Below are positions 2,846-9,424 of a stretch of DNA of 11,219 nucleotides, piece after piece. The notes below the pieces were generated by a model. It ran no database searches, was not told where the DNA came from, and saw only the letters and a program-made list of their open reading frames with translations. Numbering within the stretch: the first letter of the stretch is position 1; every line of letters begins with the position of its first letter. Position numbers and translations under genes: made by a program. The stretch comes from Patescibacteria group bacterium (GTDB lineage: Bacteria; Patescibacteriota; Patescibacteriia; Patescibacteriales; JAHJJO01): positions 1 through 11,219 of the forward strand of contig JAHJJO010000141.1 of NCBI GenBank assembly GCA_018822835.1, written 5' to 3'.

Positions 2846-3631
2846 TTATTTCCATTTCCAAAAATATTTGATCCATGACTTAATATGCTCTCTAGCTAAT
2901 TTATTTAAAAATGGTGAAATATACCATGGCTTTTCAATGCCGCTCCTGATATGGTCATGAATTATTATTGCTTTTGGATTATAAATTATTTTATATTTTG
3001 CTTCGCATGCCCTGTAACACAAATCTATATCTTCGCAGTACATAAAAAAACGTTTATCAAATAATGGTTTAATTAAATTAAATTTTTTTTTATCAATCAT
3101 TAAGCATGATCCCATTAGCCAATTCACTTCTTTAATACTATTATGATCAAAATCTTCCATTAAAAAATTATTAAGATATTTCTTAAAAAATTTCCCCATA
3201 AACGTCCTTCTCAGTATTGGCGTATAAAATTTTGGAAAACGAAAACAAGAATATTGCAAAGTGTTGTCTGGATTTAATAATTTTGGGCCAACAATACCGA
3301 CTTTTTCATTATTTTTAATGTAATTGTATAAAGTTTTAATAGCATCTTTTTTTACTGTGGTATCTGGATTTAAAATTAAAATAAATTCACCTCGCGTTTG
3401 TTTAATGCCTAAATTATTTCCACCTCCCATTCCTAAATTTTTTTCGCTTTGAATAAAATTAATTTCAGGATATTGTAATGTAATAATTTTTTGACTGTCA
3501 TCTTGTGATGCATTATCAACTACGATAATTTCATATTTTAAATTATCTAAATCAGACTCTTTGATTGATTGAATGCAATTCAAAGTTTTTTCTTTAGATT
3601 TGTAGTTGACTATTATAATGCTTAAATCCAT
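2846..3631 (-). CDS. Family-2 glycosyltransferase (WbbL/rhamnosyltransferase-like)
   Basis: This 261-residue protein probably transfers a sugar from a nucleotide donor onto a surface glycan. It has the GT-A fold hallmarks of family 2: SIIIVNYKS at 4-12, VDNAS at 38-42, the loop NLGMGGGNNLGI at 65-76, and LNPDTTV at 87-93, where the NPD replaces DxD for metal and nucleotide binding. GSCLMIDKKKF is at 174-184 and MYCEDIDLCYR at 197-207, containing the catalytic acidic pair, with HDH at 225-227. This set is typical of the WbbL-like subgroup; the actual donor sugar cannot be read. The length is complete for the subgroup. A C-terminal basic and aromatic tail (SWIKYFWKWK) may associate with the membrane. 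It is downstream of, and co-oriented with, a second glycosyltransferase, separated by a 77-bp hairpin repeat. No Shine-Dalgarno site precedes the ATG at 3631. Confidence 0.9.
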   Translation of the reverse strand: MDLSIIIVNYKSKEKTLNCIQSIKESDLDNLKYEIIVVDNASQDDSQKIITLQYPEINFIQSEKNLGMGGGNNLGIKQTRGEFILILNPDTTVKKDAIKTLYNYIKNNEKVGIVGPKLLNPDNTLQYSCFRFPKFYTPILRRTFMGKFFKKYLNNFLMEDFDHNSIKEVNWLMGSCLMIDKKKFNLIKPLFDKRFFMYCEDIDLCYRACEAKYKIIYNPKAIIIHDHIRSGIEKPWYISPFLNKLAREHIKSWIKYFWKWK

Positions 3632-3636
3632 AAATT

Positions 3637-3713
3637 AGCTTTTTAGCTTGTAGCTTTTTAGCTTCTTAGGATTTTATATTTTATAAATCTACAACCTAAA
3701 AAGCTAAAAAGCT
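3637..3713. repeat. Inverted repeat between two glycosyltransferase genes
   Basis: Arm 3652-3670 (agctttttagcttcttagg) pairs with 3695-3713 with a single mismatch across a 24-base AT-rich loop. A second direct copy of agctttttagctt precedes the left arm at 3637. The structure fills almost the whole gap between the stop of the upstream gene (3717) and the start of the downstream gene (3631). It could attenuate or protect the bicistronic message, but no clear U-tract follows. Confidence 0.7.
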
Positions 3714-3716
3714 ATG

Positions 3717-4865
3717 TTACCACCAAATCATCCTATTCACTATCCGCCAATACAACCCAAAAACAGGATTAATCACTTTTAACTTCCAGTCATTAATTTC
3801 CTGATACCAAATTTTTCCTGTAAATAATTTAATAATTTTTTTGTCTTTAATTTTGCGTAAACTTTGTGATTGCTTGCACGCGTAATATAAATATTTCCAT
3901 TTTGCAGGCGTTAAAAAATATTTCCAAACTCTAACTTTCTCTTTAAACCAGCCAGTTTTTAATGAAAACAATATTAAACCAAATTCCATTATAATAAATG
4001 CTGGTGAGATTAATAGTAATGTTAAAATATTATAATTTTTAATTATAGCAATAATTCGATTTCTGTCCATCCAATAATATTTTTTAATTGATCTGCTAAA
4101 TTCGTATTTATGATAAACAACAGCGTCTTGAGCTAAAACGCATTTATATCCAGCAAGCCAAATGCGCCAGCCCAAATCCTGATCTTCATTATACATCCAA
4201 AATTCTTCGTCAAAAAGGCCTATTTGTTTTAAAATATTTACTTTTAATAAAACCGCTGATCCGCTAAAATAACAAATATCTCGTGAATTACGAAACGCCT
4301 CTAAGTTGTCATTCCCGCGAACGCGGGAATCCAGCTTAGTGCTGTTATGACTGGATTCCCGCGTTCGCGGGAATGACACAAAGGAACATTTTTTTTGACT
4401 TGAATTTAAACTATCCTGATAATTTGAACAGTAGCCGAATCCTAAAAAATGTGTAATATTACCTAAACTGTTTATTTTTTCTTTCTCAGACCAAAGCATT
4501 ATTCGCGCCTGAACAGCGCTAATTTTATCATCGCTTTCCGCAACTTTTATTAATTCATTCACGCACCACTGTTCAACTATAACATCTAAATTAAATAAAA
4601 TTACATAATTAAATTTTTGTTCTATTGCCTTTTTTATAGCGTCATTATTTCCTTTTGCAAACCCATCGTTATTTCTATTTCTAATAATTTCTGCTTCTGG
4701 GACTATTTTGTTTAAATAATTAAAACTTTTCTCGCTTGTTTCATTGTCAACTATAAAAATTTTGTAATTTTTACAGTCTTGTTTTCTAATGCTTTCTATG
4801 CAGTCTGGTAAATACTTTTCAGCATAATCTTTATAATTTATTAAAATAATCGCGGTTTTTTTCAT
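3717..4865 (-). CDS. Family-2 glycosyltransferase with in-frame palindromic element
   Basis: This 382-residue glycosyltransferase has the same GT-A core as its neighbour: AIILINYKDY at 5-14, VDNET at 39-43, NRNNDGFAKGNNDAI at 63-77, FNLDVIV at 91-97 (N-x-D in place of DxD), SGSAVLL at 201-207, and FDEEFWMYNEDQDLGWR at 218-234 with the catalytic acidic residues. Residues about 279-302 are strongly hydrophobic and probably form a membrane helix. Residues about 163-187 (FPRTRESS...LDSRVRGNDN) are not part of the family. They are the translation of a 70-bp perfect palindrome, placed between the nucleotide-binding and acceptor-side motifs. All core motifs downstream remain in frame, so the enzyme could still be functional. 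Without that segment the protein is close to the usual length of these enzymes. There is no Shine-Dalgarno site. Confidence 0.88.
   Translation of the reverse strand: MKKTAIILINYKDYAEKYLPDCIESIRKQDCKNYKIFIVDNETSEKSFNYLNKIVPEAEIIRNRNNDGFAKGNNDAIKKAIEQKFNYVILFNLDVIVEQWCVNELIKVAESDDKISAVQARIMLWSEKEKINSLGNITHFLGFGYCSNYQDSLNSSQKKCSFVSFPRTRESSHNSTKLDSRVRGNDNLEAFRNSRDICYFSGSAVLLKVNILKQIGLFDEEFWMYNEDQDLGWRIWLAGYKCVLAQDAVVYHKYEFSRSIKKYYWMDRNRIIAIIKNYNILTLLLISPAFIIMEFGLILFSLKTGWFKEKVRVWKYFLTPAKWKYLYYACKQSQSLRKIKDKKIIKLFTGKIWYQEINDWKLKVINPVFGLYWRIVNRMIWW
4308..4377. repeat. 70-bp perfect palindromic element inside a coding sequence
   Basis: Two 27-bp arms, 4308-4334 and 4351-4377, are exact reverse complements across a 16-base spacer. 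Each arm contains its own smaller palindrome, attcccgcg-aa-cgcgggaat. It is much more GC-rich than the surrounding gene. The word GTCATTCCCGCGAACGCGGG belongs to a palindrome type that recurs in many bacterial genomes and resembles the neisserial dRS3-like repeats. Here it lies within the glycosyltransferase reading frame and is translated on the minus strand as FPRTRESS...LDSRVRGNDN, analogous to Rickettsia palindromic elements. Confidence 0.92.
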
Positions 4866-5185: not shown

Positions 5186-5245
5186 AAAAAAGTATTGTAA
5201 TTTAATAACTAAATCGTTTTTAACATAAAGCAATCCAATAACGCT

Positions 5246-5311
5246 GTCATTGCGAGGAGAGCCAGGCTGTCTAAAAACTCCAGGCGCAATGACAAGTACT
5301 CTCGCAATGAC
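5246..5311. repeat. 'gtcattgcgag' palindromic repeat interrupted by an 18-bp motif
   Basis: gtcattgcgag (5246-5256) pairs perfectly with ctcgcaatgac (5301-5311), and a partial inner copy gcgcaatgac lies at 5284-5293. This word is a common palindromic repeat type in bacterial genomes. In the middle, 5263-5280 is identical over 18 bp to the terminal repeat of the element at 8218-8376 (caggctgtctaaaaactc), apparently as a solo copy. Confidence 0.7.
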
Positions 5312-5407
5312 ACTATTCTTGTACTGCCTTGCTGTTAAAAACGATTATTATTGCATTTTTACATAGGGACTACTTAGATTATAAAACAGTCAAAAGAGCT
5401 GTTAAAA

Positions 5408-5579
5408 AGCGTTATCCACCCAACACTGTCTACAATTTTTAAAATTATATGCCAATATTAGGGAAAAGATTAAATAAAAATAAATTACCATAAATCACAA
5501 AAAGGGACTTGAATGATAAATTGAACGTCTTATAATTTAAAGACGTTTTATAAATTATGGACAGTGTTGGGGCAACGCT
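5408..5579. repeat. Small element with terminal inverted repeats (MITE-like)
   Basis: The left end has cccaacactgtctacaattt (from 5419). The right end, aaattatggacagtgttggg (to 5572), is its reverse complement apart from about three bases. Further out, agcgtt (5408-5413) pairs with aacgct (5574-5579). An internal hairpin aacgtct...agacgtt lies at 5524-5546. No protein is encoded. Length and layout fit a non-autonomous transposable element; I could not identify a convincing target-site duplication. The right end lies about 100 bases upstream of the R-M operon. Confidence 0.6.
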
Positions 5580-5685: not shown

Positions 5686-5892
5686 ATGTCAAACAATAAT
5701 AAAATTGCTGAAAACTTAAAGAAACTGCGGGCTAAAAAAGGGCTTTCTCTTGAGAAAATAGCCCATCTTGCCGATTTATCCCTTAACACCATTGTTAAGG
5801 TCGAAAACGGAGTAAATGCAAACCCAACTATTGAAACGCTAACCAAGATCGCCAAGGCGCTTGAAGTTGGTGTTGATGATTTAATTAAGTAA
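5686..5892 (+). CDS. XRE/Cro-type HTH regulator, probable R-M controller protein
   Basis: This 68-residue protein is almost entirely one HTH_3 domain: IAENLKKLRAKKGLSLEKIAHLADLS with the recognition helix region LSLNTIVKVENG, then NPTIETLTKIAKALEVGVDDLIK. It should bind DNA as a dimer. It is the first gene of a same-strand operon with the restriction endonuclease and methyltransferase, a position and size like controller (C) proteins, which delay endonuclease expression after transfer. The inverted repeat at 5628-5665 is a candidate binding site. The ATG at 5686 is preceded by a weak purine stretch (agaaaag). The stop is two bases before another ATG (5895), suggesting translational coupling in the ancestral operon. 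It could alternatively be a generic XRE repressor. Confidence 0.85.
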   Translation: MSNNNKIAENLKKLRAKKGLSLEKIAHLADLSLNTIVKVENGVNANPTIETLTKIAKALEVGVDDLIK

Positions 5893-5894
5893 TT

Positions 5895-6020
5895 ATGCCG
5901 ATTTTTAATGATTTAAATTTAGATAATTGGAAAGAGTCAGAAATTTTAAGAAAATATATTTTAATTTTAAAAACTAATCATGAAAACAAATTTACTTATT
6001 GCTATTGCAAATTTAGTTAA
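5895..6020 (+). pseudogene. Short frame resembling the 5' end of a DNA methyltransferase
   Basis: The ATG is 2 bases after the regulator stop. The frame reads MPIFNDLNLDNWKESEI and then changes character ([20 protein letters not shown]...), ending at 6020 after 41 codons. It overlaps the endonuclease start out of frame by 41 bases. The first ~17 residues resemble the N-terminus of N4-cytosine/N6-adenine methyltransferases of the type that continue with TDSLW...ERDKSGKH; this is from memory of family style. I infer a gene deleted to its first ~50 bases, with the rest chance coding. It may equally be a leader peptide that couples translation to the endonuclease. Confidence 0.35.
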
Positions 6021-6828
6021 AAGTCCAATCATAAATTTAGTGTCTTATTATCACGCCACTAATAGAGCTAACCATATGGGCGATGCTTTAGAGTTCTATG
6101 TTAAGGATTTATTTTGCAATTCTGTAAATGAAAAAAATCTTGAAAAGAAAAACGAAACTTATAGTAAATATTTTTCTTATATTGGCAATCAAAATAATCC
6201 ACCAGATATTATTATCAAGCGGGGCGATGCGATAGAAGTTAAAAAAATTGAAAGTTTACGTTCGGGAATTGCGCTTAACAGTTTATATCCGAAAGACAAA
6301 CTATTTTCCGATAGTCCAATGATAACTACAGCTTGTAGAAATTGTGAGGATTGGCGGGAAAAAGATTTGGTGTATGTTATTGGTATTTCAAAAGATGACA
6401 AATTAAAAACACTATGGATCGTTTATGGTAATTGTTATTCAGCAAACAAAGAAGTTTACGAAAGAGTAAGGGATAAAATTTCAAAAGGTGTTAATAAATT
6501 ACAAAATATTGAATTTTCAGAGACCAATGAACTTGGCAGAGTAAATAAAGTTGATCCATTAGGAATAACTTATTTGCGTATTCGTGGGATGTGGGGCATC
6601 GAAAACCCTATTAAAGTTTTTGATTATATTGTCCCAACAGAGAAAAATTCTGATTTTTTTGTTAATGCAATTTTATTAAAAGAAAAATATTTGTCATTTC
6701 CAGAGAAAGATAGAAAAAATCTTGAGAATTTAGTCGGTGATAATTTTTCAATAAAAGATATAAAAATAAAATCGCCAAACAACCCAGCAAAATTGCTGGA
6801 GGCAAAGTTATTAAGTTTTAGAAAATAG
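5980..6828 (+). CDS. Type II restriction endonuclease, NgoPII family (predicted GGCC)
   Basis: This 282-residue enzyme should cut unmethylated DNA at GGCC, the specificity of NgoPII, which has a similar length. The N-terminus carries the family signature [18 protein letters not shown] at 28-45. The nuclease centre is visible as PPD (74-76) followed by AIEVKK (84-89), a PD-(D/E)xK arrangement, preceded by YIGNQNN and followed by [16 protein letters not shown] and [15 protein letters not shown] later conserved block is [16 protein letters not shown]. The start at 5980 is forced: an in-frame TAA lies at 5968-5970. There is no Shine-Dalgarno site. The stop is one base before the methyltransferase ATG, so the two are co-translated. 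All core motifs are intact, so the gene looks functional. Confidence 0.9.
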
Positions 6829-6829
6829 T

Positions 6830-7810
6830 ATGAAATTAGTTTCTTTATTTACAGGCGCAGGCGGATTGGATTTAGGCTTTGAAAAAGCTGGTTTTTATAT
6901 TGCTTGGGCAAATGAATATGATTTTACAATTTGGGAAACATTTAGACATAATTTCCCCAAAACGAAACTGGATAAAAGAAGTATTGTAGATGTTCCAGCA
7001 TCTGAAATTCCAGATGTTGACGGTATAATCGGCGGACCACCTTGTCAAAGTTGGAGTGAGGCAGGGGCTGGTCGTGGAATAAATGATAAGCGAGGACAGC
7101 TATTTTATGACTATATCCGCTTGTTAAAAGAAAAACAGCCAAAATTTTTTCTTGCTGAAAATGTTTCGGGTATTTTACACCCGAAACATAAAGAAGCATT
7201 TTTAAACATAATCAAAGAATTTGAAAATGCTGGATATGAAGTATCCTATAAATTATTGAACGCCAATGATTATAGTGTTCCGCAGGATCGCTTCCGCGTA
7301 ATTATAATTGGTTACCATAAAAAAATAAATAAAAAATTTTATTTTCCTGAATCTCAAAAATACAAACCCGTTTTAAAGGATGCAATTTATGATTTGCGAT
7401 TGGCAAAACCAGCCAAAGATAAAAACAAGACAAATGGCGATGAATTGAAAGTTCCCAATCATGAATATATGAATGGCGGATTTTCAACGATTTATATGTC
7501 GCGAAATAGAGTTCGTTCTTGGGATGAACCTTCTTTCACAATTCAAGCTGGCGGTCGTCATGCCCCGATTCATCCTCAAGCTCCAAAAATGAAATTTATA
7601 AGTCAAAACAAAAGAATTTTTATTCCCGGCAAAGAATATTTGTATCGCCGTTTGTCCGTAAGAGAATGTGCAAGAATACAAACTTTTCCTGACAATTTTA
7701 TTTTTAAATATCAAGATATTGCTGACGGATATAAAATGATAGGTAACGCGGTAGCTGTGAATTTTGCTAATCATTTGGCAAAAAAAATAAAGGAAGATTT
7801 GTCTTTTTAA
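6830..7810 (+). CDS. DNA cytosine-5 methyltransferase, HaeIII/NgoPII-like (predicted GGCC)
   Basis: This 326-residue enzyme transfers a methyl group from S-adenosylmethionine to cytosine C5 and should protect GGCC from the partner endonuclease. Motifs are in canonical order: [12 protein letters not shown] (7-17, SAM binding), [11 protein letters not shown] (68-76, catalytic Cys72), VI AENV (109-112), VIII QDRFRV (152-157), the target recognition region about 175-270, [20 protein letters not shown] (273-290) and X GNAV (305-308). The recognition region contains [31 protein letters not shown] and HPQAP, close to what I recall of M.HaeIII, which is the main ground for GGCC. Length matches M.HaeIII. 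It directly follows the endonuclease with one intervening base. Confidence 0.95.
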
Positions 7811-9310: not shown

Positions 9311-9424
9311 TACCCTCGTTAAATGCGAAGCAATTTTTGCTCGCCCTGTTAAATAATTTCGTCTTTGACGAAATTCCTGCTCTGCAGGATTTAACAGGGC
9401 AAGCAAAAATTATTTAACAGGGTG
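9311..9424. repeat. Branched palindromic element of the 'ccctgttaaat' family
   Basis: The outer arms accct(c)gttaaat...aatttttgc (9312-9340) and gcaaaaattatttaacagggt (9403-9422) enclose a second stem, gccctgttaaat (9343-9354) with atttaacagggc (9389-9400). Inside that are two perfect hairpins: aatttcgtc-ttt-gacgaaatt (9355-9375) and cctgc-tct-gcagg (9376-9388). The left outer arm has a 7-base insertion (gcgaagc). The whole folds as a stem bearing two hairpins. It lies upstream of dnaG. Confidence 0.8.

Follow-up and report, generated by a model that had tools for sequence, protein, structure and literature searches.

The glycosyltransferase gene and its palindromic element

The window, meaning the whole stretch of 11,219 nucleotides analyzed here, carries on its minus strand a gene for a family-2 glycosyltransferase (GT2) which is read through a palindromic element. 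The relevant features are listed below.

3717..4865, minus strand: intact GT2 gene, 382 aa, host of the element
4286..4391, minus strand: whole inserted element, about 99-100 bp, with approximate outer limits given as the union of two estimates
4290..4388, minus strand: codons of residues 160-192, the sole segment of the AlphaFold2 model with pLDDT below 50
4307..4334, unstranded: left arm of the perfect palindrome (inverted-repeat search, 100% complementary)
4312..4329, unstranded: REP-like inner hairpin TTCCCGC-GAAC-GCGGGAA, unit 1 of the inverted pair
4335..4350, unstranded: 16-bp spacer between the arms (inverted-repeat search)
4351..4378, unstranded: right arm of the perfect palindrome, 28 bp (inverted-repeat search)
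4356..4373, unstranded: REP-like inner hairpin, unit 2 of the inverted pair

The protein matches PF00535 with 54.7 bits against a cut-off of 23.3 and has the GT-A fold, which places it in GT2. The element lies between N-L-D (residues 92-94) and E-D (residues 227-228) of an intact minus-strand frame and all later conserved positions stay in frame, as the first-pass annotation of this DNA had proposed when it put the element between the N-x-D and E-D motifs. Its suggestion of a likely CPR host also agrees with the nearest named loci of the gene, which among the best 80 of 113 loci are records of Candidatus Falkowbacteria, Parcubacteria and Patescibacteria. Elsewhere in the window, positions 5686-7810 hold a restriction-modification set (HTH control-type protein, NgoPII-type endonuclease and C5 cytosine methylase). 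Three more intergenic inverted repeats lie at 5227-5330, 5419-5571 and 9332-9411 (CATTGCGAG, CCCAACACTGTC and ATTTAACAGGG types), and imperfect intergenic tandem units which also form inverted repeats at 489-557 and 3631-3719.

The palindrome at 4307-4378 is perfect, with 28-bp arms around a 16-bp spacer, and its 72 bp correspond to 24 codons. An exact inverted repeat had been described previously at this place, at a slightly smaller size (70 bp with 27-bp arms) which did not hold, together with the proposal that about 2 extra bases from a target duplication, or a small loss, were needed to keep the frame. Since 72 and approximately 99 are both divisible by 3, insertion poses no frame problem; the extra bases are unneeded, and target duplication as the source of the frame was rejected. 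When the 114-nt stretch around the palindrome was folded as single-stranded DNA, a free energy of -39 kcal/mol was obtained versus a shuffle mean of -12.5 (z -10.2), with none of 200 shuffles equally good.

Homologues were compared in a set of 120 listed proteins of 1632, the window's own protein included. Many of those listed have 349-351 residues, and the window protein carries 33 extra residues at one place, equivalent to 99 bp at about 4293-4391 by protein alignment. Relatives without the palindrome also lack the segment. At the DNA level the best other copy, G000:C33:18641-18739, is 94% identical to positions 16-113 of the 114-nt query (about 4286-4383 of the window). Because this match extends so far, the repeated unit is larger than the palindrome, at about 100 bp, and its outer ends are degenerate; its borders are uncertain by about 7 bp between the DNA-copy and protein-alignment estimates. 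Structure prediction had been put forward as a check for a surface loop at this position. The AlphaFold2 model (52 sequences, mean pLDDT 85.9) singles out residues 160-192 as the only stretch below 50, and what it indicates is predicted disorder only.

Copies of the element in the source genome

The source genome (G000) comprises 805,503 bases on 157 contigs and is 88% complete; the window is its contig C150. A search with the 114-nt query returned 44 matches, merging into 24 places, and a pattern search added two more (C47 and C37:6808), both of which match in local comparison, for a known total of 26. Only the window copy lies inside an ORF with both flanks in frame. With respect to the other 25, the count of genic and intergenic copies called for by the first-pass annotation placed 22 outside ORFs of at least 80 residues and 3 (C124, C112, C153) overlapping an ORF end. 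The copy at C33:18641 has a 72-bp core identical to that of the window and different flanks, and some copies adjoin genes for RNA polymerase beta, ribosomal proteins S2 and S7, and elongation factor Ts. All 16 copies examined are inverted pairs, as is the window copy, but they were gathered as pairs, single units falling outside the collection. Extra internal sequence was present in three of these 16 and in one of the three was itself an inverted repeat; in the element copies at L023:1448, L024:1491 and L027:1504 an arm or the spacer is interrupted by additional sequence, that of L023 being an inverted repeat.

Several candidate explanations for the spread of the element were considered. An element pre-adapted to reading frames was rejected, as 13 copies were open in 0-2 of 6 frames each, 20 in total, for a mean of 1.5 versus 1.97 in shuffled sequence. 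An autonomous parent with the palindrome at both ends was sought on contig C56, where no transposase was seen among the Pfam matches of its ORFs. For a RAYT-type mobilizer, three Y1_Tnp matches were seen, none of which has an exact REP core in its own locus, and no mobilizing enzyme for the element was found among the Y1_Tnp matches examined. Neither a target-site duplication nor an empty site at the DNA level was found among 79 loci, the nearest of which is 74% identical outside the loops, G000 being the one genome of its family in the set searched. Plasmid records yielded two weak matches to the element, both in Cupriavidus (79-80% over 71 bases), and phage records yielded none.

Two observations were made alongside these searches. 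On contig C56 (L188:1-2219) two inverted element copies stand about 2.2 kb apart with a 460-residue ORF between them; this ORF has no Pfam match, and beyond the second copy lies an ORF with a match to a type IV coupling protein family. The Y1_Tnp-like protein at L119:1264-1974 has an odd internal segment (AETEVELLSVSTDRSSTSVSAPAT) which may itself be a translated repeat.

Three repeat-bearing loops in related enzymes

Among the 120 listed proteins, length outside three loops is near constant (median 317, 5th-95th percentile 315-331), and the loops themselves reach maxima of 54, 27 and 57 residues for loops 1, 2 and 3, respectively. In the 80 genes compared as DNA (the window plus 79 loci) loop 3, which holds the element, measures 15-51 residues with a median of 18, and the 51 belongs to the window. 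In the secondary structure of the predicted model, loops 1 and 2 each run from a helix into the strand that follows. Helix-to-strand turns of Rossmann-like domains lie away from the nucleotide site.

Several classes of repeat were recovered from these genes. A REP of the form GGATTCCCGC...GCGGGAATGAC occupies loop 2 in L038, L049 and L054, and the opposite strand of the same REP is found in L060 at a fourth position. Loop 1 holds C-rich stretches of the type CCCCCTNNCCCCC...AAGGGGG in L032, L041, L054 and L055, and loop 3 holds heptamer arrays in L029, L030, L032, L043, L055 and L062. The translated peptides are CHSREGGNP in L060, SFPRTRESS and LDSRVRGND in the window, and LDSRRRGND or similar in L038, L049 and L054. 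By author-defined motifs, which serve as a guide only, 45 of the 120 listed proteins fall in repeat-peptide classes; P0005 and P0006 have short REP-like peptides in loop 3. Long loop-1 rows L081, L089 and L092 contain no clear repeats and look like the ancestral length. The loop that hosts the element in the window and two others of the same enzyme thus carry several unrelated repeat classes elsewhere, and the site matters as much as the element.

A quick tree was built from 305 alignable columns outside the loops, with SH-aLRT support only. On this tree a loop exceeds the median by 8 residues or more in 21 of the 80 genes, and long loops call for no fewer than 14 changes (loops 1-3 giving 9, 7 and 7), counts which do not separate gain from loss. 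In all 80 loci the GT frame is open along the gene as far as each contig extends, these being the best 80 of 113 loci, so badly broken genes may be under-represented. The GT gene of L096 is truncated by the contig end and followed by a second GT. Judged by sequence appearance, at least five loci (L035, L038, L043, L056 and L096) have a second GT-like ORF adjacent.

Abundance and enrichment of the repeats

The repeats within the loops were also abundant in the genomes which carry them. With up to 2 mismatches, the REP was present at 2-45 places in each of 10 of 10 genomes, while a reversed-pattern control gave none in nine and one in one. The C-rich repeat (up to 1 mismatch) occurred at 2-58 places in each of 6 of 6 genomes, with a control of 0. 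Genome-wide searches for heptamers covered 2 of the 6 units, with places counted with overlaps: CGGATNT was found 134 times in G008 (home of L030), 33 times in G009 (home of L031) and in neither G007 nor G015, and AATTACG 23 times in G007 (home of L029), 10 times in G011, 4 times in G008 and once in G015. Both heptamers were thus most numerous in a genome whose GT loop carries them, although the 10 AATTACG places of G011 make the match between heptamer and genome one of degree.

Of 15 strong perfect hairpins in the 80 GT genes, 13 lay in the three loops, which hold 15% of codons (p 1.4e-9; the binomial p values given here treat sites as independent, and related genomes are not). The window palindrome is one of the 13, and the count without the window is 12 of 14. 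Codon shuffles of the whole 80-gene set gave a mean of 3.3 loop hairpins and a maximum of 8, versus the 13 observed. Across the 80 loci hairpin density per 100 kb was 6.0 in the GT, 1.1 in other ORFs and 77 outside ORFs, with 2 of 79 hairpins in none of the three classes; neighboring genes L090, L097 and L099 form one clade, and these counts are not fully independent. Of the REP cores with up to 1 mismatch in the 80 loci, 4 were in the GT, none lay 20 or more codons inside a different ORF and 7 were elsewhere, the last class including places within 20 codons of an ORF end. This bias towards the GT has p 1.2e-4 if the cores are independent and about 0.011 (2 of 2; 0.105 squared) if L038, L049 and L054 are one event, as they may be, their REPs lying in the same loop and in one supported set of 8 rows.

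The density of period-7 arrays per 100 kb was 132 in loop 3, whereas the remainder of the GT had 0, other ORFs 2.5 and DNA outside ORFs 22 (p 4.5e-9). These densities come from 6 arrays over 4.6 kb of loop 3, none over 71 kb of the remaining GT, 18 over 707 kb of other ORFs, where 8 were at least 20 residues from both ends, and 18 over 83 kb outside ORFs. Nothing comparable was seen at periods 6 and 8-12, where one period-12 array lay in loop 3. One result is left unexplained by tolerance alone, namely that heptamer arrays are denser in loop 3 than in DNA outside ORFs.

Repeats in other genes

Exact REP places were surveyed in five of the ten REP-searched genomes, which had been chosen for their REP-like GT inserts, so that their GT count is no test of GT bias, for which the hairpin, REP-core and period-7 counts of the 80 loci serve; 66 stretches around exact matches were taken, with two exact G006 places left out. 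Of 78 exact places, 14 lay in ORFs with at least 40 residues on each side, 4 near an ORF end and 60 outside ORFs. The 14 intragenic places comprised 3 in the GT, one each in a UvrD protein, an intein-bearing protein, a PfkB kinase, a Wzy_C protein, a DNA methylase and a methyltransferase-like fragment, and 5 in short, doubtful ORFs (the Pfam search covered 1 of the 5). The GT is therefore not unique, since other genes take repeats too.

The UvrD-type helicase at L129:577-2421 has REP-derived segments in frame; repair genes of other phyla with in-frame REP segments are reported in the portion of PMC3733652 consulted. PfkB-family kinases carry a heptamer array in L038:4172-5155 and L072:3908-4885, which are 72% identical, and a REP in L146:832-1770, which is 25% identical. 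These repeats fall at residues ~133-142 and ~122-131, aligned positions near residue 130, which make this loop the second candidate for a repeat-permissive site. Loops of this sort seem to be a broader feature of these genomes, the GT being the best replicated case seen.

Proposed origin and persistence of the in-frame repeats

We consider near-neutral capture of each genome's own repeats by tolerant GT loops to be the most likely explanation of these data. It builds on several observations: the element is present in many copies, there are relatives which lack it, disorder is predicted for the segment, and several repeat classes recur at the same loops. In the window, an inverted pair of REP-type palindromes from an otherwise intergenic family of about 100 bp would have been copied into loop 3 of the GT2 gene. 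It could have survived through a length that is a multiple of 3, one of few open frames falling in register, and a loop which tolerates extra disordered residues. More generally, loop 3 and the two other GT loops would be permissive sites which repeatedly take up the short repeats abundant in each Patescibacteria genome. REP pairs would arrive by some copy process and heptamers probably by slippage or local duplication. The effect on the enzyme would be near neutral, and selection would filter for an open frame and a tolerated position, presumably removing insertions that are out of frame or harmful.

An alternative, which we regard as unlikely, is that altered loops change acceptor use and the repeats are retained for this reason, capture then serving to diversify a surface-glycan enzyme. 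Loop 3 would in that case be an evolved diversity site, with genome-specific repeats (REPs, C-rich repeats, heptamer arrays) fed into an acceptor-side loop, and selfish or slippage-born DNA would be a recurrent source of protein, perhaps surface-glycan, variation. The heptamer density of loop 3 (132 versus 22 per 100 kb outside ORFs) exceeds what neutral tolerance alone predicts and fits this alternative, as do the position of the loop between the donor-site and E-D positions and the second GT-like ORF adjacent in at least five loci. However, the translated peptides of L060, the window and L038/L049/L054 are unrelated in sequence and frame, the window segment is predicted to be disordered, and a similar pattern appears in PfkB kinases. 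A shared function of the peptides is spoken against because they differ in sequence and frame between genomes.

Decay of the gene, by which a transferase becoming a pseudogene would tolerate junk, could account for large inserts in a conserved enzyme, but is very improbable given an intact frame, retained conserved positions, 305 columns alignable outside the loops and no frame break in 80 loci as far as they extend. We attach just as little weight to misassembly. A multi-copy element in a genome of 157 contigs might well have been joined into a contig wrongly, but here the element is flanked in frame by both halves of a single gene, its outer ends are unlike those of other copies, and independent genomes bear repeats at the same loop. 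That the segment is an old part of the enzyme whose likeness to intergenic copies does not stem from insertion is scarcely credible: loop 3 varies in length generally and P0005 and P0006 have short REP-like peptides there, but the same 33-residue segment occurs in none of the 119 other listed homologues and none of 79 loci, and the loop-3 length of the window is the extreme of a range with a median of 18.

In-frame repeats have been known as scattered cases over many genes, and this one enzyme offers a replicated natural experiment, in which the same three loops in many lineages hold repeats of several unrelated classes, and those genomes are also rich in them. Near-neutral capture can thereby be tested, in that repeats as neutral passengers can be set against repeats as protein raw material, and the sites where a GT-A enzyme tolerates insertions are marked. 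Where peptides of the LDSRLRGND kind occur in proteins of Patescibacteria, they are likely to be repeats that have been translated, and they can lead annotation and alignment astray.

Comparison with known repeat systems

Rickettsia palindromic elements are said to have been described by Ogata et al. in 2000 and 2002. The parallel with these elements drawn in the first-pass annotation holds, in that a multi-copy palindromic repeat is translated in frame within an apparently functional protein (PMC10969869 and PMC3733652, in the parts consulted). The present element differs in belonging to another phylum and in that just one of 26 known copies, that of the window, is present in frame within a protein-coding gene; the parallel is one of in-frame presence.

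According to the portion of PMC3733652 consulted (Di Nocera et al. 2013), dRS3 and the R. conorii elements RPE-4 and RPE-6 are assigned to the CGTC REPs, a superfamily in which inverted (head-to-head) dimers predominate, the tail is 3 bp and there is no association with a transposase gene; its Table 1 gives stems of 8-9 bp and loops of 4-5 nt. The window element has a stem of this kind, ATTCCCGC/GCGGGAAT around GAAC, and CCAG follows it. It shares with the CGTC REPs the 8-bp stem and 4-nt loop, the inverted pairs, a mostly intergenic and sometimes in-frame intragenic location, and a UvrD-type helicase among the hosts, there and here (L129). It differs in its Patescibacteria-like host and in its tag: both window arms have TGTC before ATTCCC, and of 11 REP cores in the 80 loci 9 have TGTC and 2 CGTC. 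The element resembles the CGTC REPs, but because of the TGTC tag it is not filed as a member. A further difference is that several repeat classes recur at a single loop of one enzyme, a pattern absent from the consulted portion of PMC3733652.

Like MITEs, the element is short, palindromic and multi-copy and has terminal inverted repeats; neither a parent transposon nor a target duplication was found for it in the sequences searched. The heptamer arrays share the 7-nt unit with bacterial heptameric tandem repeats as described in the available part of PMC4692102, but here they recur in one protein loop across genomes. The main text of PMC12306157, in the part available, makes no mention of Patescibacteria, Parcubacteria, intragenic or in-frame, and a literature search of titles and abstract starts, with most subscription journals outside its scope, gave no report of such repeats in Patescibacteria. 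In-frame REPs in proteins are already known; what is new, as far as the literature searched shows, is that several repeat classes recur in the same loops of a single enzyme.
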